Origin: Pirellula staleyi DSM 6068
GTDB lineage: Bacteria > Planctomycetota > Planctomycetia > Pirellulales > Pirellulaceae
Length of the DNA stretch: 64,000 nt
NCBI GenBank assembly: GCA_945875845.1
Contig: CAMCMB010000029.1
Location: 1 to 64,000 of the forward strand
Reading direction: 5' to 3'
Of this stretch, positions 4,996-42,506 are shown one piece after another. The translations under genes were made by a program, and so were the position numbers. Each line of letters starts with the position of its first letter. Position 1 is the first letter of the stretch. Below the pieces are notes generated by a model. It had not been told where the DNA came from. It made no database searches and was given only the letters and a program-made list of their open reading frames with translations.

Positions 4996-5123
4996 GGATG
5001 AACAGGATTCCTCGGTACGTATCCTGTGCATCCTGTTCATCCATGTTCAAATCGTAAAGCTAGGGCGAAGGTAATAATCCCCTGGGATTAAACCCAGGGG
5101 CATCTTTGCGCCTACAGCGCAAA
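4996..5123. terminator. Cluster of hairpins between convergent genes
   Basis: Three inverted repeats are stacked here: GGATGAACAGGAT (4996-5008) with its perfect complement at 5030-5042; CCCCTGGG/CCCAGGGG with a six-base loop at 5079-5100; and TTTGCGC/GCGCAAA at 5105-5123, which overlaps the stop of the gene on the minus strand. None is followed by a long T-run, so rho-independent termination is plausible but not proven. Confidence 0.45.
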
Positions 5124-6779
5124 TGCATCTTCCTCGGCTTTGTCGCCGTAGAGCGGCATGTAGCGGTAATAGACTTCCAGCATCATCGTCGCCATGCAGG
5201 TGATGTACAATCGACCGCCAGCATCGGCGCCATGACCATCCGCCCAGTACCAACTGCCTGCCATGTGGCCGGATTTTTCTTGCGATGCGACGAGCTTGTC
5301 GCGCATTTTAACGTTCCATTTCTCCCACTCCGGTCCACCGACTTGTTTCATGATCTGAGTCGCGTAATAATTGTAATAGGTGTTGGTTGGGCTAGGGCCG
5401 TCTTTGCTAAATCGCTCGACAGCAATCTTGATCGATGGGTGTTCTTTTGGCAGGCCAGAATACATTCGGCACAGGACGGCACAGGCGGTTGTGCTTGAAT
5501 TGTATCCCGCATTATCTTTGACGGATTGATGGCTGTAGTGATAAAAACCACCGTATTCGCCCCAAGACATTTGATCCAAGAAAGCGTTGGCTTTTCGGAC
5601 AACGTTCACATCAACGACTAGCCCTCCCATCGCGGCGCTCTTTATCGCCATCATTTGCCAGCCAACCACGGAAGTGTCGCCAAGGCCTTGGGGTGCGTAG
5701 TGCCAACCGCCAGTGGAAGGGTTTTGAGCATAGGCAAGAAAGTTAACACCGTTTTGAGAAGCTTCCAAAAGTGCTGGGTCTCGAGTCATTCCGTAGGCTT
5801 CGCACATAGCGATCGACGCGATGCCATGCGCGTACATGTCATCGTATCCCTGGCCTCCACCGCCAACGTACCAAGAACCAATCCCCTTCTGAAACTTCAT
5901 GTTCTTGATCAAGAAACCCAAGCCCTTGAATACTGCCTGCTTGTACTCGCCCTCCAAATGGGTTTGGCCGGCTCCCAGGAAGCACATGAGAGCAAGTCCT
6001 GTTGCCGCGTTCTGGCTGAAGCGACGTTTGCCTGCGTGGTCGCATTGCCCATTGCAAATGACTGAGTGGGCTAAACTCCAGGCTCCTGTATTGGGATCCT
6101 GGTGAGCCGCCAGCCATTTGAGAGCCATCGCCACCGCCTTCTCCGTATCGCTGGTTCCGCCGTATTTGCTGAGTAGATCCCGTTTCGTTTCTTTGGATCG
6201 ACTACTTAGTGCGGCTCGCATGGCCGCGTTTGCCTGAGCCGACAATCCGCTCTTGGGAATCAAGCTTTGAGTTAGGCTCGTCATCGGAACGGCGGGCATG
6301 TTGGCAGCAACCAAATCGCCGAAATTCATTTCAACCTGCGCTTCAGCGATAGTCGAGTCGACGACCGGGGACGCAGATGCAGTGTCCTGAGTCTCGCTCG
6401 ACTCTAGCTCGGATGCCATTGCCGCATCGGTCGCGAACTCTTCCATTGCTTCGCCATCCGTAATGGACTCCGACGAAACCAGCATCAATTTCAGCTCTCG
6501 TTGGATCGGCTCGATGTTCCACGCGGCGAGGATGAGAATGACTCCAACATGCAATACCGTGCTGACAAACCAACTCGGTACGGCAGCCCACCATCCAACT
6601 CGTCGAATGACGCCTTCGGTCGGTTGCTCTAATCCGAGCGAAGGGGACGCAAGCGGAGCAGTGGATTTGGCGGTCGGATGCGGTAGTGGCGTCTGTAAAT
6701 CCCGTTGCCCGGATTCACTAAATTTGGGAAGCTCGCTTCCAAAGCTGTCGAATTCGTTTGTGCCTACAGACATAACCAT
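5112..6779 (-). CDS. Membrane-anchored protein with squalene-cyclase/prenyltransferase repeats
   Basis: The 555-residue product has a soluble N-terminus of about 65 residues, one membrane segment at about 68-88, an acidic linker, and a C-terminal alpha-alpha barrel-like domain with QW-type motifs (QDPNTGAW at 227-234, QNPSTGGW at 352-359). This is the fold of squalene-hopene cyclases and prenyltransferase beta subunits, but no DxDD cyclase motif is visible, so terpene cyclisation should not be assumed. Proteins of this type are frequent in planctomycetes and mostly uncharacterised. A paralogue lies at 39913-41559. It is transcribed towards the reductase gene across the hairpin cluster. Confidence 0.75.
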   Translation of the reverse strand: MVMSVGTNEFDSFGSELPKFSESGQRDLQTPLPHPTAKSTAPLASPSLGLEQPTEGVIRRVGWWAAVPSWFVSTVLHVGVILILAAWNIEPIQRELKLMLVSSESITDGEAMEEFATDAAMASELESSETQDTASASPVVDSTIAEAQVEMNFGDLVAANMPAVPMTSLTQSLIPKSGLSAQANAAMRAALSSRSKETKRDLLSKYGGTSDTEKAVAMALKWLAAHQDPNTGAWSLAHSVICNGQCDHAGKRRFSQNAATGLALMCFLGAGQTHLEGEYKQAVFKGLGFLIKNMKFQKGIGSWYVGGGGQGYDDMYAHGIASIAMCEAYGMTRDPALLEASQNGVNFLAYAQNPSTGGWHYAPQGLGDTSVVGWQMMAIKSAAMGGLVVDVNVVRKANAFLDQMSWGEYGGFYHYSHQSVKDNAGYNSSTTACAVLCRMYSGLPKEHPSIKIAVERFSKDGPSPTNTYYNYYATQIMKQVGGPEWEKWNVKMRDKLVASQEKSGHMAGSWYWADGHGADAGGRLYITCMATMMLEVYYRYMPLYGDKAEEDAFAL

Positions 6780-6990
6780 CCAAGCTTTTTTCGAGGAGAA
6801 TAGACCTTCGGTTGGACTCGCGAGGAACGTGCGAACGGCCTTCGTATCATCGTAGCAGACAAAAGACTCGACGTGTACTCAATTGTATGCGAGCAGGAGT
6901 TTGAAATCTACCAATAAATGGGGCGAGCGACCCCCCTGAGGAACGAAGGGGGTGTGATGTGTCCACTGACTTGGACTTCGCCCGGCACTT

Positions 6991-8016
6991 TTAAATTGGG
7001 GGATCCACAGGCCGCGAACCCATTCGGAGGGTTTTGGCTAGATTCGACAATTGGACCATCGTGTCACAATGGGCAGAAAAGATCATTTTCTGACGAATCT
7101 CGTCATTAAGCGCCCGCCCGCCAACGAGCAACATGATTCCTTTCGGCAGATTTTTCGCGAACTGGGCATATTCGCTAAGAAAGACTTCGGTGTTTTCGAT
7201 GTGCGTGGTGCTCAGCCAAAAGATCTTTGGCATATGCCTGCGTGCAGCGGAAAGCATGCTGCTAAAAGGAATATTAGAGCCGAGACCGATCGTCCTCCAG
7301 CCATATTCGCGGAAAACAATTTCAATCACTTGCGAGGGGAGTTGAGTTCCGTCCCCCGACGCTGTTCCTCCCATCGCTAGCGGAGCAAACCCTTGTGTCT
7401 CGGGTAACAGCCGACGAAGCTCGTGAAGCAAACGGTAGCAAATATCGCAGGCCCTTCTTTCCTCGTAGATTTCGACTTTTCCGTTCGTCCATTTTTCGCC
7501 GATGGAACGAAACGTTGGGCTCAATAGCTCGTCTGAGACGTTCGCAATTCCGCCGTGCAAGGCGTACCATGCACTCAAAATCCTGCGACAGGTGGACTCG
7601 TCGCCAGCGATCAAAGCGGTCTCAAATCTCGCCTGTAAGCTCTCTCTGTTCAAGGCTCCTGGGTCGTTGATCCGATTCTTCTCATAGGGCTGGTCGAGCC
7701 CTATCGCACCGGGTTGCACGACGTGACGGTTTGTGGTCTCAAGAAACTCGAGGAGGAACTCGAGTGGAATTCGGCGATGTCCTCCAACCGTTCGGTCCGT
7801 TCGAATGACACCTCGGTCGCACCAACGCTTTACGGAAGACTCGCTGACTTGTAACGCCGTAGCAACTTGCCTCGGGGTAAAATTTTCGTCCAATATGCAC
7901 CTAAGTACGAGAAATACGTCCGAAACGGTCACGAGTGTTGAAACGTGGGGGCTGAAACGTTCAAGGGTCAAACCCTCCCGCTCATGAGTATATGCGTCGC
8001 ATGGCGGATAAATCAA
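6991..8016 (-). CDS. MerR-type regulator with CarH/LitR-like cobalamin domain, ligands altered
   Basis: Of 341 residues, about 47-85 form a MerR winged helix (TPRQVATALQVSESSVKRWC, then GGHRRIP). Residues about 125-205 match the helical cap and 215-330 the Rossmann part of B12-binding regulators such as CarH, which repress genes in the dark and release DNA in light. In the cap, Trp176 and Glu186 are kept, but the following CarH His is Arg187. The DxHxxG motif that supplies the lower cobalt ligand reads GDGTQLP (221-227), with Thr at the His position. Cobalamin binding may therefore be lost or different. The listed ATG leaves about 45 residues before the HTH; a GTG start nearer 7927 is possible. 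It is divergent from the sigma factor gene. Confidence 0.7.
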   Translation of the reverse strand: MIYPPCDAYTHEREGLTLERFSPHVSTLVTVSDVFLVLRCILDENFTPRQVATALQVSESSVKRWCDRGVIRTDRTVGGHRRIPLEFLLEFLETTNRHVVQPGAIGLDQPYEKNRINDPGALNRESLQARFETALIAGDESTCRRILSAWYALHGGIANVSDELLSPTFRSIGEKWTNGKVEIYEERRACDICYRLLHELRRLLPETQGFAPLAMGGTASGDGTQLPSQVIEIVFREYGWRTIGLGSNIPFSSMLSAARRHMPKIFWLSTTHIENTEVFLSEYAQFAKNLPKGIMLLVGGRALNDEIRQKMIFSAHCDTMVQLSNLAKTLRMGSRPVDPPI

Positions 8017-32038: not shown

Positions 32039-33760
32039 CTAACGAGCCAACCGAATGGCTTCGAGACGAGCGGCCTCGAATTCATCACCTGGAGTCCAAG
32101 ATTGCATGGCATCGGCATTGGCTGCTAACCAACCGACATGAAATAGCAATTGGATATCCAAAATCGCACCCGAGAGATCCCAACTTGGATCATATTCATC
32201 GGAGCGTTGATGGTAGTGTTTTTCCGTCCAGACATCGAGTTGTTCCTTGCCCCATCCCTCCGGCTTGCCCATGACCACATGTCCTGAATGCAAATAAACG
32301 CCTGGGACTCCTACTTTTGCTAATGAAAACTGATCCGACCGATAGTAGTATCCTTTGCTCGGCTCTCGGTCAGGCACAACCACCCGGTTTTGGTATTTTG
32401 CCACGCTTTCGACCAAGCGATCCAATGAGCTTTTGCCTGCTCCGATCACGTTGACATCCTTGGTCTTTCCAAGAAAGTTGATACCATCGATGTTGACCAC
32501 TGCGGATTGTTTTCCGTTTGGAATGGGCGGATGCTCGGCGAAATACTTGGAGCCGAGCAAGCCTTGCTCTTCTCCGCCGACAGCCGCAAAAACAAGGGAT
32601 CGCTTTGGGCGAATGCCGCTCTCCTTGATCGCGGTTGCAATTGCCAGAAGCGCTGCCGTCCCCGATGCATTGTCGATCGCTCCGTTGTAGATGTTGTCGC
32701 CACGTTGATCGCGATCGGCAGCAAGCCCGATGTGATCGTGGTGCGCCATAAACAAAACGTACTCATCCGCAACCTTTGGATCGCTGCCTGGCATGACAGC
32801 GAGCACGTTTGCAGTCTCCTTCTTGCGTACTTCGCAGTTGAGCGACGTATTCAACGAAACGCCGAGCGGCACGGGTTGGAAATCGCGAGATTCCGCCTTG
32901 GATCGCAAGTCGTTCAGATCAAACCCTGCATGGGAAATCAACCTAGCGGTTGCCCCCTCGGTCATCCATGCTTGGATTTCCATTCCCGGTGCCGTGCTAT
33001 CTGGGAGTTCAAACTTTTCGCCCGTCCATGACGTTTGAATGACTGTGAACGGATAGCCGGCCGACGGCGTGGTGTGGATGATGATTGCACCTGCCGCACC
33101 TTGCCGCGCTGCGCTTTCATATTTGTAATCCCAACGACCATAGTACAAACGCCGTGAACCTGCGAAAAGGTTTGGGTCGGACTCAGGGTCATTGTTCATC
33201 ATCAACAAAATCTTCCCCTTGAGATCTTTGCCTTTGAAATCATTCCATTGGAACTCTGGGGCTTCGATACCATAGCCGACAAAAACAATCTCTGCGTCTT
33301 TCACGTTGATGTTGGACTCAGGCTTACCCGCCACGGCAATGAAATCGTCGAAGTAGCGGAACTCGATTTCCGACTTGCTGTTTTTGTTGGGACCGAATTT
33401 CCAAGTCTTCGAAGCGTCCGACGTCAATCCGAGCATTGGAAACTTTTGTCGGTAGGACTTAAGCGAATCGAATGGGAGCAAGCCCATGCTGCGAAACTGC
33501 GTTTCCAGATAAAGCTGAGCTATAGCATCCCCTTTCGATCCAGGTCCTCGACCTTCTAGAAGATCGTCCGCAAGAAACTGGATATGCCCATGCAACGAGT
33601 CCACGGTAATCTTGTCCGCAATGGAAACCGCTTGACTCCACGATTCGGAAGGGTTGACTTGTGCGGTCGCTTGATTGGCCGAATAGGCTAACCAAATCAG
33701 TAGCATCGCGACTGCCAGTGGATGGGAAGTTCGTTTCTTCAATAAACCGGAATGAATCAT
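32039..33760 (-). CDS. Secreted M28-family metallopeptidase with PA-like insert
   Basis: The 573 residues have a signal peptide (AVAMLLIWLAYSANQATAQ), a region at about 130-300 resembling a protease-associated domain, and an M28 aminopeptidase domain with di-zinc ligands His340 (MAHHDH), Asp363 (NGAIDNASG), Glu397/Glu398 (GGEEQG) and Asp425 (NIDG). Enzymes of this family remove N-terminal residues from peptides outside the cytoplasm. ATG 33760 fits the signal peptide. It runs in the same direction as the esterase gene upstream, 53 bases away. Confidence 0.88.
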   Translation of the reverse strand: MIHSGLLKKRTSHPLAVAMLLIWLAYSANQATAQVNPSESWSQAVSIADKITVDSLHGHIQFLADDLLEGRGPGSKGDAIAQLYLETQFRSMGLLPFDSLKSYRQKFPMLGLTSDASKTWKFGPNKNSKSEIEFRYFDDFIAVAGKPESNINVKDAEIVFVGYGIEAPEFQWNDFKGKDLKGKILLMMNNDPESDPNLFAGSRRLYYGRWDYKYESAARQGAAGAIIIHTTPSAGYPFTVIQTSWTGEKFELPDSTAPGMEIQAWMTEGATARLISHAGFDLNDLRSKAESRDFQPVPLGVSLNTSLNCEVRKKETANVLAVMPGSDPKVADEYVLFMAHHDHIGLAADRDQRGDNIYNGAIDNASGTAALLAIATAIKESGIRPKRSLVFAAVGGEEQGLLGSKYFAEHPPIPNGKQSAVVNIDGINFLGKTKDVNVIGAGKSSLDRLVESVAKYQNRVVVPDREPSKGYYYRSDQFSLAKVGVPGVYLHSGHVVMGKPEGWGKEQLDVWTEKHYHQRSDEYDPSWDLSGAILDIQLLFHVGWLAANADAMQSWTPGDEFEAARLEAIRLAR

Positions 33761-33813
33761 AATGCCTTCGGTGTACTTCGATAGTTGAGACGGAACCAGA
33801 ACCAGTGGATGGA

Positions 33814-34725
33814 CTACTTTTCAGATTTCCAATCGCGCCAAAGCCAGCGCATCGCTTCGGGCATAATGGAACCGCCGTGGATGTCGTTGTGACCGCCAGT
33901 GCCATAAACAAACTCAAAGTCGTAGCCGCTAAACTTGAGCGAGGCAGCCATTTCCTGATTGGCGAGTGGCCAATTTCCAAACTTATTATCCAAGTCGCCG
34001 CTGCCATCTTGGAGGAAAACGCGGATCGGCTTCTTCGGAGTTTTTCGAATCATGGGTGCATAGTTGTGACCACCGCGCAGATCCACAAAGCTACCGACGT
34101 GGCTGAGCACCTTTCGAAACATGTCGGGGCGTTCCCACGCGACCGTGAACGCGCAGATACCACCGGAACTGATTCCACAGATAGCCCGCATCTCTGGATT
34201 GTCGGTTAGCTTATAATCCTTGGCGACTTCTGGCAAAATTTCGTTGATGACAAAGCGTGCGTATTGATCGCCGAGCGAGTCGTATTCAAACGATCGGTTC
34301 GCGGGAGTTGGTTCCCAACCTGCTTTTTCTGGCAGGGGTTTCTTGTGCCCTGGGTCGATGAAGATGCCGATGGTGACGGGCATTTCGCCTGCATGAATCA
34401 AATTGTCCATCACAACCGGGGCACGAAACTTGCCATCGCGTTTCACGTAGGTATGCCCATCCTGAAACACCATTACGGCGGCAGGTTTTGTGCCATCGTA
34501 TTGGGCTGGCACATAGACGCTGTAGCGACGATTGGTTCCTTCGAAGATCTGGCTCTGCCAAGTGTGTTCGGTGATTTTTCCTTGAGGGACATCGGGCTTA
34601 ACTTGCGAATCAGGACCAAGTTTGTACTGGCTATCGTCGGCGTACGCGACGATGTCGTTCAACGCGAACAACGCGAACGCAGACAGCGTGACGACGCAAA
34701 TCAAAAATCGGTTGGGTAGTTTCAT
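33814..34725 (-). CDS. Secreted esterase of the D-family (enterochelin esterase-like)
   Basis: From ATG 34725 the product has 303 residues: signal peptide (FLICVVTLSAFALFALNDIVA), then an alpha/beta hydrolase domain with the nucleophile elbow GISSGG and a late His (GTGGHNDIHGG). The pattern YSVYVPAQYDGTKPAAVMVF is typical of the Fes/esterase-D group, which cleaves ester bonds in siderophores, feruloyl sugars and other compounds. An earlier ATG at 34767 would add 14 residues that spoil the signal peptide. Probably co-transcribed with the M28 peptidase. Confidence 0.82.
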   Translation of the reverse strand: MKLPNRFLICVVTLSAFALFALNDIVAYADDSQYKLGPDSQVKPDVPQGKITEHTWQSQIFEGTNRRYSVYVPAQYDGTKPAAVMVFQDGHTYVKRDGKFRAPVVMDNLIHAGEMPVTIGIFIDPGHKKPLPEKAGWEPTPANRSFEYDSLGDQYARFVINEILPEVAKDYKLTDNPEMRAICGISSGGICAFTVAWERPDMFRKVLSHVGSFVDLRGGHNYAPMIRKTPKKPIRVFLQDGSGDLDNKFGNWPLANQEMAASLKFSGYDFEFVYGTGGHNDIHGGSIMPEAMRWLWRDWKSEK

Positions 34726-34785
34726 GGATACGCAATGTTCACAGGAGGAAAGGGGGCAAATATGCACTCTAGGATAGCCTGTTTT

Positions 34786-35007
34786 TCAGGGCATTGATAG
34801 AACGCGTTCAGGACGAAAACCCTGCCGTCGCTTAGTAAAGTGGCGTTCTGACTTGAATTTCCATGGCTCGCACAAGGAGCCTGATTCGGATGCTCGCTGT
34901 AAACGCTTAACCAACTCTGGATCACGCCAAATAAGGAGTGGAGCCCCTGGTTGTCGCAACACTTCGTTGATCTCGAAGATCATCCAGTTTTGAAAAGTAT
35001 CTGTCAC
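34786..35007 (-). pseudogene. Possible 5' fragment of a PglZ-domain gene
   Basis: A 73-codon frame starts with GTG at 35007, overlapping the DUF488 stop as GTGA, so it was translated as part of that operon. Residues 7-34 (NWMIFEINEVLRQPGAPLLI, then WRDPELVKRL) read to me like the N-terminus of PglZ-domain proteins, which continue for several hundred residues; here the frame ends after 73. I infer a gene cut by deletion just before the esterase gene. It may instead be an unrelated small protein. No search could be run. Confidence 0.45.
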
Positions 35008-35450
35008 GTCAAATGCTCCGTTCTAATTTCTCCCCAGTGTTTTGAGAGATATTCAACGACCAATCGTCGATGACAGTGATTTGGTAAGTGCTCGCTGCAA
35101 AGCAAGCAACCGTGATCGATCAAATCCTTTGGCACCGATGTCTCGATCGAGCGCTTCACCATCAGATCAATAAACTCTCGCTCGTAAACACTCCAGTCAC
35201 CGTTATGCTTCTTGTATGCATCAAGAAGGTCCTTCGTTGGTGCTAGCTCGGGGATATGGATGTATTCCACATCGCACAGCCCTTTCAAGAAGTACGCGAG
35301 GTCATCGCGCTTGGCGAATCCCGCTAACTGAGACGAATTGTTGAGACGAACATCTATGACTCGCCGTATCGCTGGGTTCTTCAGCTTTTTGAAGAACTCC
35401 TCAGCCGACTTCTGAGTAAAACCAATGGTGAATGTCGTTAGATTACTCAC
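35004..35450 (-). CDS. DUF488-family protein (second copy)
   Basis: GTG 35450 overlaps the stop of the upstream DUF488 gene, giving 148 residues; the open frame extends further but inside that gene. Motifs match DUF488: FTIGFTQKSAEEFF at the start, RRVIDVRLNNSS, and the C-terminal Cys/His cluster LLCSEHLPNHCHRRLVVEYL. The fold is thought to be Rossmann-like with a possible nucleotide or nucleic-acid role, but the activity is unknown. It diverges strongly from its neighbour, so this is not a recent duplication. Confidence 0.8.
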   Translation of the reverse strand: MSNLTTFTIGFTQKSAEEFFKKLKNPAIRRVIDVRLNNSSQLAGFAKRDDLAYFLKGLCDVEYIHIPELAPTKDLLDAYKKHNGDWSVYEREFIDLMVKRSIETSVPKDLIDHGCLLCSEHLPNHCHRRLVVEYLSKHWGEIRTEHLT

Positions 35451-36057
35451 TGTCCATGCCTTTGGCTGTTGATACCATCGATCTGTACGCAATCTTGTTT
35501 CCCTGCTTCTCATAAGCCTCCGCGAGAACGTCTTCTCGGGATTCGAACAATGTTCGATTGTTCAGTCCGAATAATCGCATTAGACGGTCCTCCGCGTCCT
35601 CATGTCGTTCCAATCCCCCAGGTTCGATAATGTGAGCGATCGAAACGTGCTCTTTCAGGTAGCGGCAAATCAGAATTGTGCGATGGCAAGTTAGAGGATC
35701 TTTTTCGGCACACATCATCGCAATTCGACGCGACTTCACTCCTAATCGGATACGGTCAAGCCCAGCCCGAAACGCCACAGTCACTGCAATCTTCTCATAC
35801 CGCGCGACACCATCCTCGTAGCAGGATTTCTCGTCGCGACGTGCTCCAAGTTCCTTACCAAGAAAAACATAGGCAATGCCATTGCTGCTCAACGTCTGTT
35901 TGAGTATCTCGCGATTGTATTGAGGGTTCATTCCGCTGAAGGGTGATGATCGAACATCCGCGATAGCATCGACACGATTCTCCTTCAGGAGCTCGATAAA
36001 CTTATCTATCGGGCGATTCGAATGTCCTATGGTGTAAAGCATCTGCTCTGTCATCAT
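35443..36057 (-). CDS. DUF488-family protein (first copy)
   Basis: The start is taken at 36057 (MMTEQMLYTIGHSNRPIDKF), four bases after the preceding stop; 204 residues. The three DUF488 motifs are clear: YTIGHSN, IADVRSSPFSGMNPQYN and MMCAEKDPLTCHRTI. The Cys-x-Glu ... Cys-His-Arg cluster is strictly kept in the family and may form an active or metal site. It sits in a packed run with the dual-OB-like gene before it and a second DUF488 gene after it, so the products probably act together. Confidence 0.83.
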   Translation of the reverse strand: MMTEQMLYTIGHSNRPIDKFIELLKENRVDAIADVRSSPFSGMNPQYNREILKQTLSSNGIAYVFLGKELGARRDEKSCYEDGVARYEKIAVTVAFRAGLDRIRLGVKSRRIAMMCAEKDPLTCHRTILICRYLKEHVSIAHIIEPGGLERHEDAEDRLMRLFGLNNRTLFESREDVLAEAYEKQGNKIAYRSMVSTAKGMDSE

Positions 36058-36061
36058 TTTT

Positions 36062-36778
36062 TCATTGTGCTTCGATGATTGTCGCAACCACCTTGTAGTG
36101 ATAGCCGTTAAACTCTGGCGCAAGACTCACACAAAGGCAACAGCCGCCCGGAGGCTCAATATCAAATTCGACCTGCGATTCACCTTGTGTCGGAAAGCGT
36201 TCTCGGTACTTCTCCACAAATACTGGGTCGGTGAGGCCGAGATCGTAGTCAACGCCACAATAGCGAAAGTTGACTCTGCGTTTTCGGCTGTATTCGCCGG
36301 CCCATACTTTCCAAAAGAATTTTACCCTTAGTTTCGTGACCTGGACCAAATACAGGGAAGAGTTGAGTTTAAGTAGTTTTAAAAAGTCAGCAGAGACACG
36401 ATCTGTTTTCTGTTGTGGCTGAAGCCACAAATGTTGTGGTGTCTCCGTCAGAAGTTCAATGCCAGGCTTAGCAAACAAATCGTTGGCAAGTTTCCAGCGT
36501 TCACCAGGTGAAATGAACCAGTTTTCGGGCTGAAGCGAGTTTTTTGCGTGCCCTTCCAACGGAATCTCTAAAAAGTCCATCACTCTTGGTTGACGAAGAG
36601 GACCGAGCTGAGTTTCCGATGGATATAACTCACCTTCTCCATGCCGGGAAATTGGACGCACCCAGCCGCCAATCTGATAATTCTTGCTTCCGGAAATGAT
36701 CTCTCGACCGGCGATGCAAGTGCTAGGTGCGTGTTTTATAGAATTGGCCAATACTATCACGTATTTCAATTCAGCCAT
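36062..36778 (-). CDS. Dual-OB-like protein of the DUF488 operon
   Basis: The 238 residues are beta-rich without membrane segments: KYVIVLANSIKHAPSTCIAG, then IGGWVRPISRHGEGEL, later YLVQVTKLRVKFFW and CVSLAPEFNGYHYKVVATII. From memory this pattern (conserved GGWVRP, closing with a paired beta region and CVSL.xP motif) fits the dual-OB-fold family that accompanies DUF488 genes; OB folds suggest nucleic-acid binding. The family name is from memory and not verified. The gene is 24 bases downstream of the DUF429-like gene and 4 bases before DUF488. Confidence 0.6.
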   Translation of the reverse strand: MAELKYVIVLANSIKHAPSTCIAGREIISGSKNYQIGGWVRPISRHGEGELYPSETQLGPLRQPRVMDFLEIPLEGHAKNSLQPENWFISPGERWKLANDLFAKPGIELLTETPQHLWLQPQQKTDRVSADFLKLLKLNSSLYLVQVTKLRVKFFWKVWAGEYSRKRRVNFRYCGVDYDLGLTDPVFVEKYRERFPTQGESQVEFDIEPPGGCCLCVSLAPEFNGYHYKVVATIIEAQ

Positions 36779-36802
36779 TGGAATTGCCTCCCGCGTTTCG
36801 TT

Positions 36803-37735
36803 TCACTCTTGAGCACCCCATATCCATCCCTCACGTGAAAAGAAATTCAATGCGAGGTGCTGTGGTGCATTCCAAATGGATGCATCTTTATGAAAATGCC
36901 TCAGTGCGGCAGCCGTCAATAGCGCGTCACCACTATTCTCTCCGCCCGGCGGGGCTAGAGCATTTACATTTCCAACCCGGCACAACTGCATCGCGAGCTG
37001 AAAAACAAGAGGGTATCTGTGGGAGCTAGCAGGTACGCCAACCATCTCGTACAGCATTCGAGGCCAGATCTCGACGAATATCGCTTTCGCTTTCACGCTG
37101 GGTGCTACACCGTCAAACGGCCAAACATGCACGTCAGTTCCAAACCGCTCCCGAAAATCTTGGATCATGGCTAAGCCTGATATTGAGCCGCGTCCAACTT
37201 GGTCTCCGCCGATCAACTTGAAGATATTCGCAGGATTCTGGTTCCGTAAGAATTCAGTCTGTTCAGTGATGCGATGACGCGGCGAATACTCAGCACCACG
37301 ACTCCCTTGTAGTAAGAAGAATCGACTGTAAAAATCGTGGGCTATAAATGGGTTGGGATCGAAATCGTTTCCGGTTCGCTTACGAAGAAGCGCAAGTAGG
37401 CTTCTCCAGCTTTCAGTCGGAGTTTCCTCGGCGGGGAAGTATGCTCCAATGTCTGCGAAGGGAAATGACAACGCAAAGTCGAAACCAATGAGCGATGGCT
37501 TGCTGTTTCGCTGTTTCATTTGGAGTCGATCTGCAAGCCAATTGAAGGTAGTCGAACGTGACCACCGATTTTCTTGCCAATTCGGATTGTGCACAGCGTT
37601 TGGTTGATGAAGCGTAAGTTGCCCGCTTTCCGAATCGCAAGTTGCGATTTGAATGGGAAACTCGCCGTCACTACCACGTGCGTAGTCCTGACTCCCTGAC
37701 CAGTCGATACCGATAAACTCTTCGAACTCAAACAT
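36803..37735 (-). CDS. DUF429-like protein, predicted RNase H-fold nuclease
   Basis: The 310 residues carry acidic residues at the positions expected for an RNase H/RuvC-like fold: Asp11 in GIDWSG, Asp86 in LIGFDFALSFP, Glu222 in VEIWPR and Asp270 in GDALLTAAALRH. The same GIDxxG ... FDxxLxxP ... ExxPR ... DAL order is seen in DUF429. A metal-dependent nuclease role is inference. Its ATG overlaps the stop of the methyltransferase fragment upstream (ATGTTTGA), so the two were coupled. It opens the four-gene operon. Confidence 0.6.
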   Translation of the reverse strand: MFEFEEFIGIDWSGSQDYARGSDGEFPIQIATCDSESGQLTLHQPNAVHNPNWQENRWSRSTTFNWLADRLQMKQRNSKPSLIGFDFALSFPFADIGAYFPAEETPTESWRSLLALLRKRTGNDFDPNPFIAHDFYSRFFLLQGSRGAEYSPRHRITEQTEFLRNQNPANIFKLIGGDQVGRGSISGLAMIQDFRERFGTDVHVWPFDGVAPSVKAKAIFVEIWPRMLYEMVGVPASSHRYPLVFQLAMQLCRVGNVNALAPPGGENSGDALLTAAALRHFHKDASIWNAPQHLALNFFSREGWIWGAQE

Positions 37736-38027
37736 TATCTGTCTCCCGCTCCTTCCACCATCCTGACTGGGGCAGCTTGCCTTCGCGGACCCAGCGGCGT
37801 TCGTCGGCTCGCCACTCAGCGCGGTCAGCGATGGCTTTATCGACGTCTTTCGCTGCTAGCACATCAGCTGCCCAGAGCCCAGCCGTCCGCAGAGGTGCAT
37901 TGTTGACACGTACTCCGTCGTTGATGTCGGGAGCGTAGAGTGACTCTTGAGCGATGAATTCAGCAATCGTCTTCCGTGGAACTCGGCGTTCGTCGAGGAG
38001 TCGGTTGTCGACTCTCCCGACGATTCG
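37728..38027 (-). pseudogene. C-terminal fragment of a PglX/Eco57I-type DNA methyltransferase
   Basis: A frame without start codon runs from about 38027 to TGA 37728. It reads RIVGRVDNRLLDERR, then YAPDINDGVRVNNAPLRTAG and ADERRWVREGKLPQSGWW. The Y-x-P-D-x-x-D-G-V-x-V-N-x-A-P-L pattern is what I associate with the tail of large N6-adenine methyltransferases of restriction and BREX systems. Nothing of the catalytic domain remains upstream; another frame there (from 38131) shows no family. The stop overlaps the start of the DUF429-like gene by eight bases, marking it as a lost operon member. Confidence 0.45.
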
Positions 38028-38155
38028 ATATATTCCTTGAGTCGCGTACGGATGTCTTGAATTTCAACATCGCTAGTGATGGTCGCCATTTCAGTAATCA
38101 TTCCTTCACGATAGTCGAAAAACAGATGCAAGGCAAATCGTCATGTGTGCTACGC

Positions 38156-38770
38156 TCAGTCCAAGGCAACCCAGTACTGTTCAACACACGACCAGCGAAT
38201 TGTTATTGGTTTGCCCTCAACGGTTCGCACGAGAACAAATGGGTCATCTAGCATCGTGAAGCTCATTGAGCGGCCGGCAACGTTTTGTTCGCATGCCCAT
38301 ATAGCTGGCTCCGGAAACTGAATCTGGCGAATCGAACCAATGCTGCAGAACTTCCCCGCGTAGCGCAGTGCGAGCCGCGATTGGTAATATTGGTTGAGGA
38401 GATTTTCACCACCCGCTGCAGTCAGGCGATTGACTGCACCCTCGACAACCGAAGTCGCAAGTGATGCCGCGACAACAAAACCGAGATCACCCATAAATCC
38501 CAGGCCAGTCGATTTTGGTGTTAGTTTCTTTGCAGCCTCTTCGTACAATCGCTGAACGTTTTGAGCCACATCCAATGGGACCATGTAGACCGAATCAAAT
38601 TCATGTGCATGACCCGAAGTAAGAACCATTTGACCTGTGTAATCGTTCGAACCATCATGGGCGATGATCTTGCCCGGCTCGGTACATTTTGGGCAACGAC
38701 TGTTCTTACCGATATTCACATCGGGAGTCTTGGTGATTGTCAAACAACTTGAACAGACCAAAGCCGCCAT
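38156..38770 (-). CDS. Hypothetical protein with N-terminal zinc ribbon
   Basis: The 204 residues start with two Cys pairs (CSSC at 6-9, CPKC at 26-29), an apparent zinc ribbon, then a region with GHAHEFDSVYMVPLDVAQ, a Gly-rich hydrophobic stretch at about 108-130 (LGFMGDLGFVVAASLATSVV) that may be a membrane or buried helix, and a beta-rich C-terminus. I do not recognise the family. It lies just upstream of the methyltransferase fragment on the same strand, and divergent from the membrane protein gene that follows. Confidence 0.65.
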   Translation of the reverse strand: MAALVCSSCLTITKTPDVNIGKNSRCPKCTEPGKIIAHDGSNDYTGQMVLTSGHAHEFDSVYMVPLDVAQNVQRLYEEAAKKLTPKSTGLGFMGDLGFVVAASLATSVVEGAVNRLTAAGGENLLNQYYQSRLALRYAGKFCSIGSIRQIQFPEPAIWACEQNVAGRSMSFTMLDDPFVLVRTVEGKPITIRWSCVEQYWVALD

Positions 38771-38849
38771 GGTTACCTAGATCTTTGGATTGGATGTAGA
38801 ATGGCGACATTGATCATGTAGTAACCGTTCAAACGATAGAACAAAACGA

Positions 38850-39443
38850 GTGACCGAACCAAAGAAACCCTGGCAAGATCGTTTCCTGGTCATGTTGGAT
38901 ACACGCTCCCCGGCTTCACTACGATGGTGGTTAGGCTTCGACAATCGAGTCGACAGTTCGCAATTCGCAGAGGAGCTTAAATCGCTGGAGTACGAGGGAC
39001 ACACCAGGGATCTGTTGGAGTACTCTAAGGAACTCCGTAAAGAGTCGCTCGACGGATACAAGCTTGCTAATGAGCGTGCCGAGAAACTCTTGGGAGTAAC
39101 GCTAATCATGTGCGGATGGATCTTCACCACTGCCAAGCCATCAGTGACGTTTCTAGAGAAATCTCTTTGGGTCTTCAGCGCGACAACGTTCTTATTGGTC
39201 ATCGCGACACTGATGCTCGGTCGATGGAAGCTCCAGGCTCGGCAACCCGCAACGTTTCCTAAAATGGCGAGGTATGCCCACGATACTGCCGCTGAAGACG
39301 AGTGGGAGTTCGTCCAAGCACGACAATATGCAGTGGCAGCATTTGAGAATCGCGATCTAACGGGCCAAGTGCATAGAAGGTTACTTCTAGCCATTTCCAT
39401 TCTTCTCGCTGGGCTTACTGCTTTCGCGCTTCGGGGCCTGTGA
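38850..39443 (+). CDS. Hypothetical membrane protein, three predicted helices
   Basis: The 197 residues (GTG start at 38850) have a charged helical N-terminus, two membrane helices at about 81-97 and 105-124 (LLGVTLIMCGWIF, SLWVFSATTFLLVIATLML), a cytoplasmic helical region of about 50 residues, and a third helix at the C-terminus (LLLAISILLAGLTAFAL). The layout recalls small membrane effectors of bacterial conflict systems, but I see no specific family signature. It stands alone, divergent from the zinc-ribbon gene. Confidence 0.6.
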   Translation: MTEPKKPWQDRFLVMLDTRSPASLRWWLGFDNRVDSSQFAEELKSLEYEGHTRDLLEYSKELRKESLDGYKLANERAEKLLGVTLIMCGWIFTTAKPSVTFLEKSLWVFSATTFLLVIATLMLGRWKLQARQPATFPKMARYAHDTAAEDEWEFVQARQYAVAAFENRDLTGQVHRRLLLAISILLAGLTAFALRGL

Positions 39444-39692
39444 CTCAGCGATGCGGCGTCTCTCAGTGGTATTCACCGACTTGTCGATCGATCGCTCACT
39501 CAAGTTATGAGTGTCGGTGTCACTGATGTTTTGATTGGTGGTCTTTCGCTTCTCAGCCATTTTCGGACTCCATTTGTTTAACAACACATGAAAACTGGGT
39601 CCATCCAGCGACTCTGGTTCCATCCAGAGTTCCTACTACTTCTTTTCGAAATCCATTGCATTTCGCAAGGCGAGTGAGTAGGTTTCTAAGAG

Positions 39693-39765
39693 TGGTCAGG
39701 GGCGGGCTCGAACCGCCGACACATGGATTTTCAGTCCATTGCTCTACCAACTGAGCTACCTAACC
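39693..39765 (-). tRNA. tRNA-Phe (GAA)
   Basis: The complement folds into a standard 73-base cloverleaf: acceptor stem GGTTAGG/CCTGACC with discriminator A, D arm with AGCTCAGTTGGTAGAGC, anticodon loop CTGAAAA giving anticodon GAA, and T arm GGCGGTTCGAGCCCGCC. CCA is not encoded. It borders the accessory region; a second copy of its 3' end, as expected for an integrase attachment site, was not seen by eye. Confidence 0.95.
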
Positions 39766-39912
39766 AACCAAAAGGCTCCCGTAATGTATTTCGACGCCTA
39801 GATTTTGTCAATTCGACGTCAATGCATTTGTCACGGCATCGCCAAGCGGATAATCTAGTTAAATAGCTTGGTTCTCCAGAGCATCCACTAAACGTATCAG
39901 GAATTTGGCGCC

Positions 39913-41559
39913 GTGACTTTCCCATTCGCACGCAATTTAGTTACCGCCTTTGTTCTGAGCGCTCTCGGGTCGGTTTTCTGGATGAATGCCGAATCGCCAG
40001 CGTTTGCTCAGAAATACACGCCGGATCACCCGGCTGTTCAGGAGATGGTCAACAGGGGGATGAATTTCCTTGCAAAGGAATCGAGAGGCGTTGATGAAGG
40101 CGAAACGCTGCTCGTTGGCTATTGCGCTTACAAAGTCAACGGCGATCCAAATGACCCGTTAGTGAAGGCGGGAGTGGCTGCGGCACTTAGGTTGGCTCAA
40201 TTGGTTTCCTCTGGCTCAAGCCGGGGAGGTGAGCAATCCATGTATGTGATTGCCCTGGCAGGAATGTTATTGCCATCCGTGGATGTGGACGCATACGGCG
40301 GTCCCACGAAACAAATACGCGACTTCATGTTGAGTGTTCAGAAACAAAATGGCGGTTTTGGCTATCTCACGGGGACAAATGCCGTTTTTGGCGATATTTC
40401 CCAAACCCAGTATGTAATGTTGTCGTTTTGGACAATGAACCAATTGGGGATCGAAGTTCCCCCAGATGCGATTGGCGCCACGATTAATTTTTTGCTCGCA
40501 TCCCAAGAAAATACCGGGGGATGGCCTTATCAGTACAAGAGCCCGGGGGTAACGCAGATGCCACCTTCCAATTCGTTAACCGCTGCTGGACTTTCCGCAC
40601 TCCTCATTGGCGGCGATATGCTTGGGCTGTATCGAAGCAGGCAGCAAGAGAATCAAGAGGAAGAAGGGATCGTTCCGCTCGCTTTCAAACGTGTCCTCTC
40701 CGAAGCACAGCGACCCAAGCTCAATTTTGACAAAAGCCGAGTGGATGCATCGAGCAAACGCAGCGAAGCCTGGTTTGCGGCCAATCCGTATACTCGCGAT
40801 GCCAACTTCCATTATTACTACGTCTACAGTCGCGAGCGATACGAGTCCTTCTTGGAGATCACCAAAGGCAAGCAATCGAAAAGCCCCGACTGGTACAATG
40901 ACGGGGTTCGAATGCTGATGGATGCCCAGGATGAAAAAGGCGCGTGGGGTACCAAGGCGGATGTCTCCACGTTTCTGCCTCCCCCGATTGCAACCTCATT
41001 CGCCATTTTATTCTTGATACGAAGCACCCAGAAGGCGATTGGTGATTTGAGCGAAGCCCTCAACAAAGGCATTGGTGAACTTCCCGATGATGTCAGTTCG
41101 ATCGCCACGAGTGGAGGCAAAATCGTGAATAAGAATTCCGCGACCTCCATCGACGAAGCCTTAAAAATGCTTGAGGATGACAGCAAATCGCAGGGAGAAG
41201 ATGCATTGGCTCCGGAAAAAATGCTCTTGGCAGCCGATCCGAAACAACGTCAAGAACAAATCAATCGATTCGTGCGGTTGCTCAATGCGAAAGACTACAA
41301 GGCAAGGCAGGTTGCAGCCAAGATGCTCGGGCGCGGCGACAGCCTAGACGTCGTTCCTTCCTTGATCTACGCGTTGACCGATCCGGACCCGCGCGTCCCC
41401 TTTTATGCCGAACAATCCTTGCGACTCATCTCACGCCAATTGGATACGTATCACTTACCGAAAAAAGAAAAAATTTCGGAACAAGATAAAAACCGAGCTG
41501 CCACGCAATGGAAGAAGTGGTTCTTGGGGCTCCGACCCGATTATGTTTTTGTCGACTAA
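39913..41559 (+). CDS. Secreted squalene-cyclase-like repeat protein with C-terminal HEAT-like segment
   Basis: Starting with GTG at 39913, the 548 residues have a signal peptide (LVTAFVLSALGSVFW ... AFAQ), an alpha-alpha barrel domain with QW-type motifs (QKQNGGFG, QENTGGW, QDEKGAWG), and a C-terminal HEAT-like repeat (RQVAAKMLGRGDSLDVVPSL). No cyclase DxDD motif is seen. It is a distant paralogue of the protein at 5112-6779. The following gene starts 20 bases downstream and is probably in the same operon. Function unknown. Confidence 0.77.
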   Translation: MTFPFARNLVTAFVLSALGSVFWMNAESPAFAQKYTPDHPAVQEMVNRGMNFLAKESRGVDEGETLLVGYCAYKVNGDPNDPLVKAGVAAALRLAQLVSSGSSRGGEQSMYVIALAGMLLPSVDVDAYGGPTKQIRDFMLSVQKQNGGFGYLTGTNAVFGDISQTQYVMLSFWTMNQLGIEVPPDAIGATINFLLASQENTGGWPYQYKSPGVTQMPPSNSLTAAGLSALLIGGDMLGLYRSRQQENQEEEGIVPLAFKRVLSEAQRPKLNFDKSRVDASSKRSEAWFAANPYTRDANFHYYYVYSRERYESFLEITKGKQSKSPDWYNDGVRMLMDAQDEKGAWGTKADVSTFLPPPIATSFAILFLIRSTQKAIGDLSEALNKGIGELPDDVSSIATSGGKIVNKNSATSIDEALKMLEDDSKSQGEDALAPEKMLLAADPKQRQEQINRFVRLLNAKDYKARQVAAKMLGRGDSLDVVPSLIYALTDPDPRVPFYAEQSLRLISRQLDTYHLPKKEKISEQDKNRAATQWKKWFLGLRPDYVFVD

Positions 41560-41579
41560 CCTTACCACGTACACCTTAT

Positions 41580-42506
41580 ATGTCCTCACCCAATCCGACC
41601 AAGAATATGTTGCACATCGATGAAACGTCGATGCGAACCAACAAAGTGGACCAGACCTCCAGTCTGTTATTGAGCTTGGCACTGCTCATCGGACTGGCTG
41701 TGTTGATGCTTGGATTGCTATTTTTTCTGCGATCCATGTCCTCATCCGCACAAGTCATCATTCTTGAGCCGGAACGCATTGCTGGTCGCGGCGAAAACGC
41801 CGAAGGAACGGAGCGAGACTTTGACCCGCCCGCTGCGGATGAGGTCGAGCAGTTGAATGAACCCGCCATCGAACAGACGCTTCAAATGGTGACTGAAACG
41901 ATCAGCATGATTTCTTCGTCGCTCGAAAGCATGGAATCAACCTTGACCGGCAATGAATCCAACGGCAAAGGCGATAGCCGTCCGCCTGGACCGGAAGGTG
42001 AGGGGGATGACATTATCCCCCGCTTCGATCGCTGGGAATTGAAGTTTACGGCCCGTGATCGCCGCAATTACGCGATCCAACTCGAAGCGTTTAAAATCGA
42101 AGTAGGTGCCATCGGCGGTGGCATCACGACCATCGACACCATCACCAATATCGCAAGTGCTCCCACGAAGAAATCGGTGACACCCAAGGAAGAGAAAACT
42201 CGGAAGCGATTGAAGTTTGTTAGCGTGAACGAAAACGTTTTGTTGCAGTATGAGAAACAATTACTTCAGTCTGCCGGCATTCCAGCTAGCGGTCGTCAGG
42301 TCATCAAATTTGTTCCGAACGACACCGAAGAGGCTCTGGCTCAAGCCGAGGCGGCTTACTACATGGAAAAGCGCGGCAAAGACTTGCGAGTCGCCACCAT
42401 TGCGAAAACAGTTTTCGAATGCCGCCAAAAGAGCAAAGGCGGCGGTTTCGAATTCGTGGTAATCGACCAACGGTATCGAAACGGTATGAACGCTCCGAAG
42501 AAATGA
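41580..42506 (+). CDS. Hypothetical single-span membrane protein
   Basis: ATG 41580 is chosen as the first start after the previous stop; a later ATG (41607) is possible. The 308 residues have one N-terminal membrane helix at about 29-50 (LLLSLALLIGLAVLMLGLLF), an acidic linker, and a periplasmic domain from about 150 (FDRWELKFTARDRRNYAIQL ... KRLKFVSVNENVLLQYEKQL). The family seems planctomycete-specific. Coupling with the squalene-cyclase-like gene suggests a joint envelope role, which is inference. Confidence 0.7.
   Translation: MSSPNPTKNMLHIDETSMRTNKVDQTSSLLLSLALLIGLAVLMLGLLFFLRSMSSSAQVIILEPERIAGRGENAEGTERDFDPPAADEVEQLNEPAIEQTLQMVTETISMISSSLESMESTLTGNESNGKGDSRPPGPEGEGDDIIPRFDRWELKFTARDRRNYAIQLEAFKIEVGAIGGGITTIDTITNIASAPTKKSVTPKEEKTRKRLKFVSVNENVLLQYEKQLLQSAGIPASGRQVIKFVPNDTEEALAQAEAAYYMEKRGKDLRVATIAKTVFECRQKSKGGGFEFVVIDQRYRNGMNAPKK

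Follow-up and report, generated by a model that had tools for sequence, protein, structure and literature searches.

The analysed window, the first 64,000 nucleotides of a Pirellula staleyi DSM 6068 contig (CAMCMB010000029.1), contains four adjoining open reading frames on the minus strand, flanked by two truncated genes and located close to a tRNA gene. In order of transcription, these are gene 1 (310 aa, 36803-37735), gene 2, encoding a dual-OB protein (238 aa, 36062-36778), and genes 3 (204 aa, 35443-36057) and 4, both encoding DUF488 proteins. Gene 4 spans 35004-35450 (148 aa from GTG) and was scanned as 35004-35444 (146 aa). A C-terminal stub of the BREX methyltransferase PglX, at about 37728-37997 on the same strand, overlaps gene 1 by 8 bases (ATGTTTGA, 37728-37735). 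Gaps of 24 and 4 bases separate gene 1 from gene 2 and gene 2 from gene 3, the two DUF488 genes overlap by 8 bases, and gene 4 shares the bases GTGA (35004-35007) with an N-terminal PglZ stub (34819-35007, minus strand). The junctions are hence as described in an earlier note on this DNA, which had reported four adjoining minus-strand genes with small gaps or overlaps.

The borders of the region were defined by blastn to L117, which is colinear with the window on both flanks and breaks at 34818 and 39690. In place of the intervening island (34819-39689), the close relative G405 carries 403 different bases, and the PglZ stub therefore terminates where the island meets the chromosome. On the right, the island is bordered by a tRNA-Phe (gaa) gene identified with ARAGORN (39692-39765, minus strand). 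The span proposed in the earlier note (34786-38027) requires a correction, as the last 33 bases of the reading frame that contains the PglZ stub (34786-34818) are chromosomal flank kept in G405 and not PglZ. A pattern search of the window allowing up to three mismatches found no second copy of the tRNA-Phe 3' end as an att-like repeat, and the GC content of the island is not distinct from that of its surroundings.

Remnants of a BREX operon

The two truncated genes had been attributed to the tail of a PglX-type methyltransferase and to the head of PglZ, and the comparative analysis bore out both attributions. Pfam and NCBIfam profile searches returned no match for either stub, and PADLOC yielded a weak match for the PglX stub only (E=0.005), which covers the final residues of its PglX profile. 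Across 65 aa, this stub presents 77% identity to the tail of a PglX-like protein at L079, and its DNA is 80.6% identical to the end of PglX at L197, a locus from the same genus. The PglZ stub shows 84.9% DNA identity to the M45C/PglZ junction of L197 over 34915-35020, and its score against the PglZ head of L079, with the chromosomal tail excluded, was matched by none of 1000 shuffles. It does not align with the PglZ heads of other BREX lineages, represented by L131, L132 and L100 (265, 540 and 61 of 1000 shuffles as good, respectively), indicating that the lineages differ. Of two tblastn searches of plasmids with the stubs, one returned no match and the other two weak matches (E=0.6). It is the congeneric L197 that settles the identity of the stubs, and both are BREX genes rather than fragments of unrelated families.

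Complete PglX and PglZ are absent at this locus, which retains the C-terminal and N-terminal stubs only, and phmmer searches with BrxC and BrxL queries detected neither protein in positions 33001-42000. A complete, separate BREX system is encoded elsewhere in the same genome, on contig C42. Profile PF08665 found no PglZ in this genome, where phmmer identified a full one; this profile is hence insensitive here, and the lack of a PF08665 match in 13 of 15 genomes does not amount to absence of PglZ.

The PDC-M45 genes within and outside BREX

Genes 2, 3 and 4 constitute the PADLOC candidate system PDC-M45, encompassing M45A, M45B and M45C. All three PADLOC profiles matched strongly (E=1.3e-44, 2.8e-78 and 1.7e-69, respectively), as did the corresponding Pfam families: DuOB (PF22557, E=8e-44) for gene 2 and DUF488 for genes 3 (E=8e-25) and 4 (E=3e-23). 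The window copy differs in lying between BREX stubs and in being preceded by a RuvC-like gene. To our knowledge, PDC-M45 is a PADLOC candidate with no functional test; searches of the open-access literature found no paper naming it and none linking DUF488 with BREX. Residues C116, E118 and C124-H125-R126 are kept in both gene 3 (family alignment) and gene 4 (numbering of the M45C family alignment). Foldseek searches with the AF2 model of gene 3 (pLDDT 93) retrieved the PRL-1 phosphatase with probability 0.99, but at E=0.006 and TM 0.39/0.50, and a baculovirus RNA 5'-phosphatase with probability 0.95, with no match at E<=0.001; the predicted fold is PTP-like. DUF488 profiles, conserved cysteines and this PTP-like model would place the window proteins close to the rhodanese-phosphatase superfamily, for which DNA-end processing in conflict systems has reportedly been predicted.

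The earlier note would have been refuted by a four-gene core that never occurs beside methyltransferase or PglZ genes in other genomes. For the three-gene set this is not the case: examination of gene neighbourhoods located the dual-OB/DUF488/DUF488 genes between PglX and PglZ in three of the 24 other triads. L197 presents in a row PglX (cut by the contig end), a 172-aa protein where the window has gene 1, DuOB, M45B, M45C, PglZ and BrxL, with the identities of PglX, PglZ and BrxL confirmed. Its DNA is 80.4% identical to the window over 34915-36148, and identity of 80-85% runs unbroken from M45B and M45C into PglZ; a flanking gene of L197 has merely 51% identity to its best match in the window's own genome. 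The remaining two loci, on IMG/VR contigs, belong to another BREX lineage. L131 encodes BrxC, PglX, DuOB, M45B, M45C, PglZ and BrxL in a row, and L132 presents PglX (as two ORFs), DuOB, M45B, M45C, PglZ and BrxL; in L132, a helicase-like ORF of 907 aa separates PglX from a BrxC piece. In the M45B tree, the window pairs with L197 with support 100/100, and the BREX label needs two changes, forced by the starred branches, with a single change in 0% of 200 bootstrap trees. The tree accordingly calls for at least two independent associations between M45B and BREX.

The content of the pglX-pglZ slot varies between loci, as seen in L100 and in the host's own BREX on C42. In the BREX system of S. Typhimurium LT2, an ATPase and a DUF4435 protein have been described as accessory genes between pglX and pglZ (PMC9009780), and the main text of a BREX survey makes no mention of DUF488, rhodanese or dual-OB (PMC12839542). 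The locus in the window shares this slot and its flanks with Type 1 BREX systems carrying accessory genes, but has lost BREX itself.

Outside BREX, free-standing triads are common, and some lie beside type III CRISPR or CBASS genes. In L040/L073, an M45B domain is fused to the end of a helicase, at a locus with DUF499 and an HmaB/PglXI-like methyltransferase in which DUF1156 falls just below cut-off. This fusion at a DUF499 (BREX-related) locus is a third link of M45B with BREX-type systems. The DUF499, methyltransferase and helicase are shared with DUF499-centred BREX-related (BR) systems, but the helicase ends in an M45B domain, unlike the described C-terminal REase, which is found on the helicase in 79% of Type-1 BR taxa (PMC12839542). 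SLOG-DUF4326, a predicted ADP-ribose-type sensor/phosphatase, accompanies the DuOB-M45C pair lacking M45B in 25 of 26 loci, and phage-borne versions carry it in place of the first DUF488. PADLOC recognised a single one of ten proteins scanned in the vicinity of M45 loci, a homing endonuclease, and a scan of genome contigs returned one locus. L040 also contains a 376-aa ORF with a weak PglZ match (E=2e-4).

Persistence or decay of the cassette

We consider it probable, if by no means certain, that the locus is a Type 1-like BREX remnant beside tRNA-Phe, in which PDC-M45 occupied the pglX-pglZ slot and outlasted BREX; the triad would act as a nucleic-acid-end-processing effector. In this reading, the interval between pglX and pglZ was an exchangeable position that held the cassette; of the BREX genes, only the PglX tail and the PglZ head escaped loss, and the cassette remained open, with the RuvC-like nuclease gene located between the PglX tail and the dual-OB gene.

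Rather unlikely, in our assessment, is that the cassette is a dead remnant, deprived of its promoter when the BREX genes disappeared and drifting since, its open frames reflecting a recent loss. Both flanking BREX genes are broken, no promoter-like site was found on the coding strand upstream of the cassette, and the BREX system elsewhere in the genome could make the cassette dispensable. The window cassette has moreover evolved faster than that of L197 (64 vs 36 decidable differences, p=0.007), which fits relaxed constraint. Decay is countered by the commonness of free-standing triads and by near-equal departures of window and L197 at outgroup-conserved columns (M45B 2 vs 2, M45C 1 vs 1, DuOB 8 vs 5). 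Pairwise dN/dS for M45B is 0.13, a figure that averages both lineages, and pairwise dN for M45C is 0.058, with synonymous sites saturated. The further points against decay are that all four frames are open and that the residues shared by all members of the family alignments are retained, in agreement with the earlier claim that the core had stayed open; judging from these sequence features, it is plausible that the window cassette may still act.

Gene 1 and the proposed role of the cassette

The label of DUF429-like nuclease previously given to gene 1 found no support. Its product matched no Pfam family at E<=1, and DUF429 (PF04250) matched neither the window protein nor any of the eight family members. 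Acidic residues D11, D86, D208, E222 and D270 are invariant in eight aligned sequences (alignment A1), and are putatively catalytic. Foldseek searches with a poor AF2 model (pLDDT 62) placed RuvC-like resolvases at ranks 1, 3 and 5 in BFVD (probabilities 0.96, 0.90 and 0.85) and the MOC1 resolvase at rank 19 in PDB (probability 0.51), none of them at E<=0.001, and hmmsearch against PDB sequences returned no convincing match. Gene 1 is a predicted RuvC/RNase H-like nuclease, for which the weak model looks RuvC-like. When 391 other genomes from the phylum sample were searched, 15 contained a relative at E<=0.001, and two additional viral scans found no further contigs.

Tight spacing (gene 1 overlaps the PglX stub by 8 bases and lies 24 bases from DuOB) and a gene 1 relative inside an apparent restriction operon (L123) would both be expected if the four genes formed a distinct module with the RuvC-like protein as core subunit. 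We regard such a module as improbable. A single ancestral core of four genes is unsupported because gene 1 lies beside the triad in none of the 24 other triad loci and L197 has the 172-aa protein instead. Of the 15 genomes of the phylum sample with a relative, two (G251 and G259) also hold M45C, not adjacent, and plasmid-borne relatives follow dnaE or rarA. Of the ancestral methyltransferase-to-PglZ operon that was proposed to have lost both ends, the three-gene set in the BREX slot is therefore upheld, and the inclusion of gene 1 is not. Least probable of all is a chance landing of a free-standing M45 between old BREX fragments, never in that operon. Most of the triads found lack BREX flanks, as this reading would have it, but it is largely refuted by the order, orientation, M45C/PglZ GTGA overlap, continuous DNA identity and fully supported M45B pairing shared with L197.

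As for the mechanism, the dual-OB protein would bind either a single strand or the end of a nucleic acid, the two DUF488 proteins, as cysteine enzymes of predicted PTP/rhodanese fold, would modify phosphate or sugar groups at this terminus, and the RuvC-like protein may cut branched or end-bearing DNA. Within BREX, the cassette would operate as an additional effector on BREX-flagged DNA; alone it could constitute a small defence system, as suggested by the many free-standing copies. The triad stranded beside a tRNA after BREX loss points to a movable add-on to BREX, and the PDC-M45 effector cassette is likely swappable into BREX as well as free-standing. A broader proposal, which we advance tentatively and with some doubt, is that M45 might be a swappable end-processing effector that entered the BREX slot at least twice, a DUF499 helicase by fusion, and phages. 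One position would always be taken by a DUF488 protein, and the other would vary between a second DUF488 and SLOG-DUF4326; the window would then represent cargo outliving BREX, with a RuvC-like nuclease alongside.

These results connect PDC-M45, a candidate defence set, with BREX in identified loci, including an operon from the same genus. They raise the question of how paired DUF488 enzymes may act on nucleic-acid ends in phage defence, and the range of possible chemistries is narrowed by the alternation of the first DUF488 with SLOG-DUF4326 beside an unchanged DuOB-DUF488 pair.

A dual-OB/DUF488 cassette between BREX gene remnants

Re-reading of the window sequence bore out the four open minus-strand genes and junctions of the earlier note: gene 1 (36803-37735), gene 2 (36062-36778), gene 3 (35443-36057) and gene 4 (35004-35450). 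In Pfam, gene 2 falls in the dual-OB family PF22557 (E=8e-44), and the products of genes 3 and 4 belong to DUF488 (E=8e-25 and 3e-23); PADLOC assigned all three to its candidate defence set PDC-M45, as M45A (hereafter DuOB), M45B and M45C (E=1e-44, 3e-78 and 2e-69). Gene 1 matched nothing in Pfam, PADLOC or NCBIfam at E<=1, and none of eight aligned members of its family matched DUF429, two unrelated families each giving one weak match among them; the label DUF429-like previously applied to gene 1 is therefore unsupported by sequence.

The flanking stubs had been read as the tail of a PglX/Eco57I-type methyltransferase (~37728-37997) and the head of a PglZ (34819-35007), and this reading held, the decisive relative being L197, a contig from another genome of the genus (G400). 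On one strand, L197 encodes a PglX truncated where the contig ends and a 172-aa protein that has no Pfam match, followed by DuOB, M45B, M45C, PglZ (841 aa) and BrxL; the PglX, PglZ and BrxL identities were confirmed by a further check. DNA identity to L197 is 80.4% across 34915-36148 (PglZ head, M45C, M45B and the end of DuOB), 84.9% at the M45C/PglZ junction (34915-35020) and 80.6% in the PglX tail (37742-37973). The remainder of DuOB is alike at the protein level only (51% over its length), and L197 lacks a gene corresponding to gene 1. For one L197 flank gene, the best match in the genome of the window is only 51% identical, so that flank alone is no proof of the contig's origin.

The PglX stub also matches the extreme end of the PADLOC PglX profile (E=0.005) and shares 77% identity across 65 aa with the C-terminus of a PglX-like protein encoded on L079, a contig that farther along encodes PglZ in two frames and BrxL. 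Against two IMG/VR contigs (L131 and L132) its similarity was weak, with 9 and 15 of 1000 shuffles scoring as well, versus 0 of 1000 for another BREX locus, L100. No PglZ head of L131, L132 or L100 aligned with the PglZ stub, since 265, 540 and 61 of 1000 shuffles, respectively, scored equally well. These three loci are BREX lineages other than that of the stubs. Genome G049 also carries this PglX C-terminus, interrupted by frame breaks (L080 9195-9455). The C-terminal domain of the L197 BrxL (5003-7303; residues ~514-766), which we take to be protein-kinase-like, matches PADLOC PD-T4-6, mad6 and Stk2.

Integrity of the cassette and its island

The cassette frames are open and retain the residues invariant in family alignments. 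Compared with L197, M45B presents a dN/dS of 0.13, while dN is 0.058 for M45C and 0.48 for DuOB, both with saturated synonymous sites. At differences decided by outgroups, the rarer state is found in the window more frequently than in L197 (15 v 5, 7 v 3 and 42 v 28; 64 v 36 in sum, p=0.007, with 65 further differences undecided), but departures at outgroup-conserved columns are about equal (2 v 2, 1 v 1 and 8 v 5), so the cassette appears constrained, though less than that of L197. No promoter-like site was found on the coding strand upstream of the cassette.

Genes around the site are colinear in the close relative G405, at 87-90% DNA identity, with 403 other bases replacing window 34819-39689 between tRNA-Phe and an esterase gene. 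Colinearity breaks at 34818 and 39690, and the PglZ stub was thus cut at the left junction of the island, the final 33 bases of its ORF being chromosome. A pattern search found no repeat of the tRNA end at the left edge; integration through a tRNA-targeting element is therefore suggested by place only. Strong M45B matches occurred in two of the 27 genomes of the genus (this one and G400), and G402 gave a weak match. Between the PglX stub and tRNA-Phe lie two ORFs without convincing family, by eye zinc-ribbon-like (38156-38770, minus strand) and membrane-like (38850-39443, plus strand). A reading frame starting with ATG (37856-38101) enters the PglX stub out of register with it, and may represent the head of a further gene that was lost.

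M45 genes in the pglX-pglZ interval

The pglX-pglZ interval contained other genes in all six loci examined: M45 in L197, L131 and L132, a gene that we take to be YhcG/DUF1016-like in L100, other genes in L079, and an ATPase-like and a 272-aa gene in the separate BREX of this genome on contig C42. According to PMC9009780, an ATPase and DUF4435 pair occupies this interval in S. Typhimurium LT2, and E. coli HS lacks the pair. The Type 1-like C42 locus (L199 4356-18853) comprises open genes matching BrxA, BrxB, BrxC, PglX, PglZ and BrxL of L100, its BrxL also matching PADLOC (E=6e-287). The names BrxA and BrxB in L100 are assumed from gene order. A PF08665 search of the genome left the C42 PglZ undetected, though phmmer recovered it. 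Since this complete BREX matches the stub lineage (L079, L197) far more poorly than L100, the genome has retained one BREX and lost most of a second.

The proposed adjacency of dual-OB/DUF488/DUF488 genes to PglX and PglZ in other genomes was recovered in L197, L131 and L132. Viral-contig scans gave the consecutive order BrxC, PglX, DuOB, M45B, M45C, PglZ and BrxL in L131, and PglX (two ORFs), DuOB, M45B, M45C, PglZ and BrxL in L132, where a 907-aa helicase-like ORF separates PglX from a BrxC piece at the stretch edge. All three M45 genes fell inside one examined stretch in 24 other loci (L003, L034, L037-L045, L065, L066, L102, L125-L127, L129-L132, L135, L136 and L197; L129 and L130 are possibly near-copies, and the L034 contig spans 3,765 bases). 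BREX genes flank three of these 24, and a further one (L040) is linked to a BREX-related locus; the test used phmmer with queries from few loci, and further BREX-flanked triads may therefore be missed. In a tree of 28 M45B proteins, the BREX label needs two changes, forced by well-supported branches, and one-change trees made up 0% of 200 bootstrap trees. M45 has hence associated with BREX separately at least two times.

In the DUF499-type BREX-related locus L040/L073, M45B forms the C-terminus of an SNF2-type, HmaA/BrxHII-like helicase (L040 9750-13172). Beside it, the HmaB/PglXI-like methyltransferase scores 23.5 bits for DUF1156, below the cut-off of 24, and the DUF499 protein 25.5 bits (cut-off 23). 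PMC12839542 reports a helicase fused to an REase in 79% of Type-1 BR taxa, whereas the L040/L073 helicase carries M45B; DUF488, rhodanese, DuOB and DUF429 are absent from its main text.

Free-standing forms and predicted function

Outside BREX, the triad lies near type III CRISPR genes on an Allochromatium plasmid and near CBASS genes on an Agrobacterium plasmid, and two DUF488 genes adjoin cas genes on a Rhodothermus plasmid. ImmA/IrrE-like genes lie beside the triad in L066, L126, L129 and L130, accompanied by XRE-like genes (helix-turn-helix by annotation in L066, presumably XRE-like in L126 and L130). A second form, DuOB and M45C without M45B, was found in 26 loci, comprising 23 viral contigs (L162-L179, L181-L184 and L186, some of them near-copies) and three plasmids (L067, L068 and L070). 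A SLOG-DUF4326 relative adjoins this pair in 25 of the 26 (two examples verified with Pfam, the others called by phmmer), on the opposite side in L162; the one exception, L164, stops 154 bases past M45C. No listed locus with both M45B and M45C has such a relative. Two enzymes of related type hence alternate beside the DuOB-M45C pair, DUF488 and DUF4326 being, we assume, related. In L166, a terminase gene encoded on the opposite strand adjoins the DuOB-M45C-SLOG-DUF4326 set.

The M45B model (pLDDT 93) resembles PTP-type phosphatases (human PRL-1, probability 0.99, E=0.006; baculovirus RNA 5'-phosphatase, probability 0.95), with no structural match at E<=0.001. In the secondary structure of the model, a strand ends at C116 and the next helix begins at R126, which is where PTP enzymes have their catalytic loop. 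For gene 1 (pLDDT 62), the best viral matches include RuvC-like resolvases (probabilities 0.96, 0.90 and 0.85), and PDB searches returned a weak match to the MOC1 resolvase, with unrelated folds also ranking high. Relatives of gene 1 are located after dnaE in Azospirillum, and in Sphingomonas they overlap rarA; such neighbours fit DNA repair. In L123 (1-4044), a NucS_C/DUF5655 protein precedes a relative whose C-terminal tail is zinc-ribbon-like; farther upstream lies what is presumably an HsdS C-terminus.

Gene content, the slot and at least two separate BREX associations are established. The dual-OB protein would bind the end of a nucleic acid, whose terminal phosphate or sugar groups would be the targets of the two DUF488-family cysteine enzymes; the complex would block or kill the DNA or RNA of an invader, either by itself or where BREX holds the DNA. 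DNA-end processing was reportedly predicted by Burroughs and Aravind (2023) for this clade of enzymes in conflict systems. The window holds a PADLOC candidate set that occupies a BREX slot and was left stranded when the BREX genes were lost, and the parts worth testing are, more than the fossil itself, the docking of M45 in BREX and the SLOG-DUF4326 swap.
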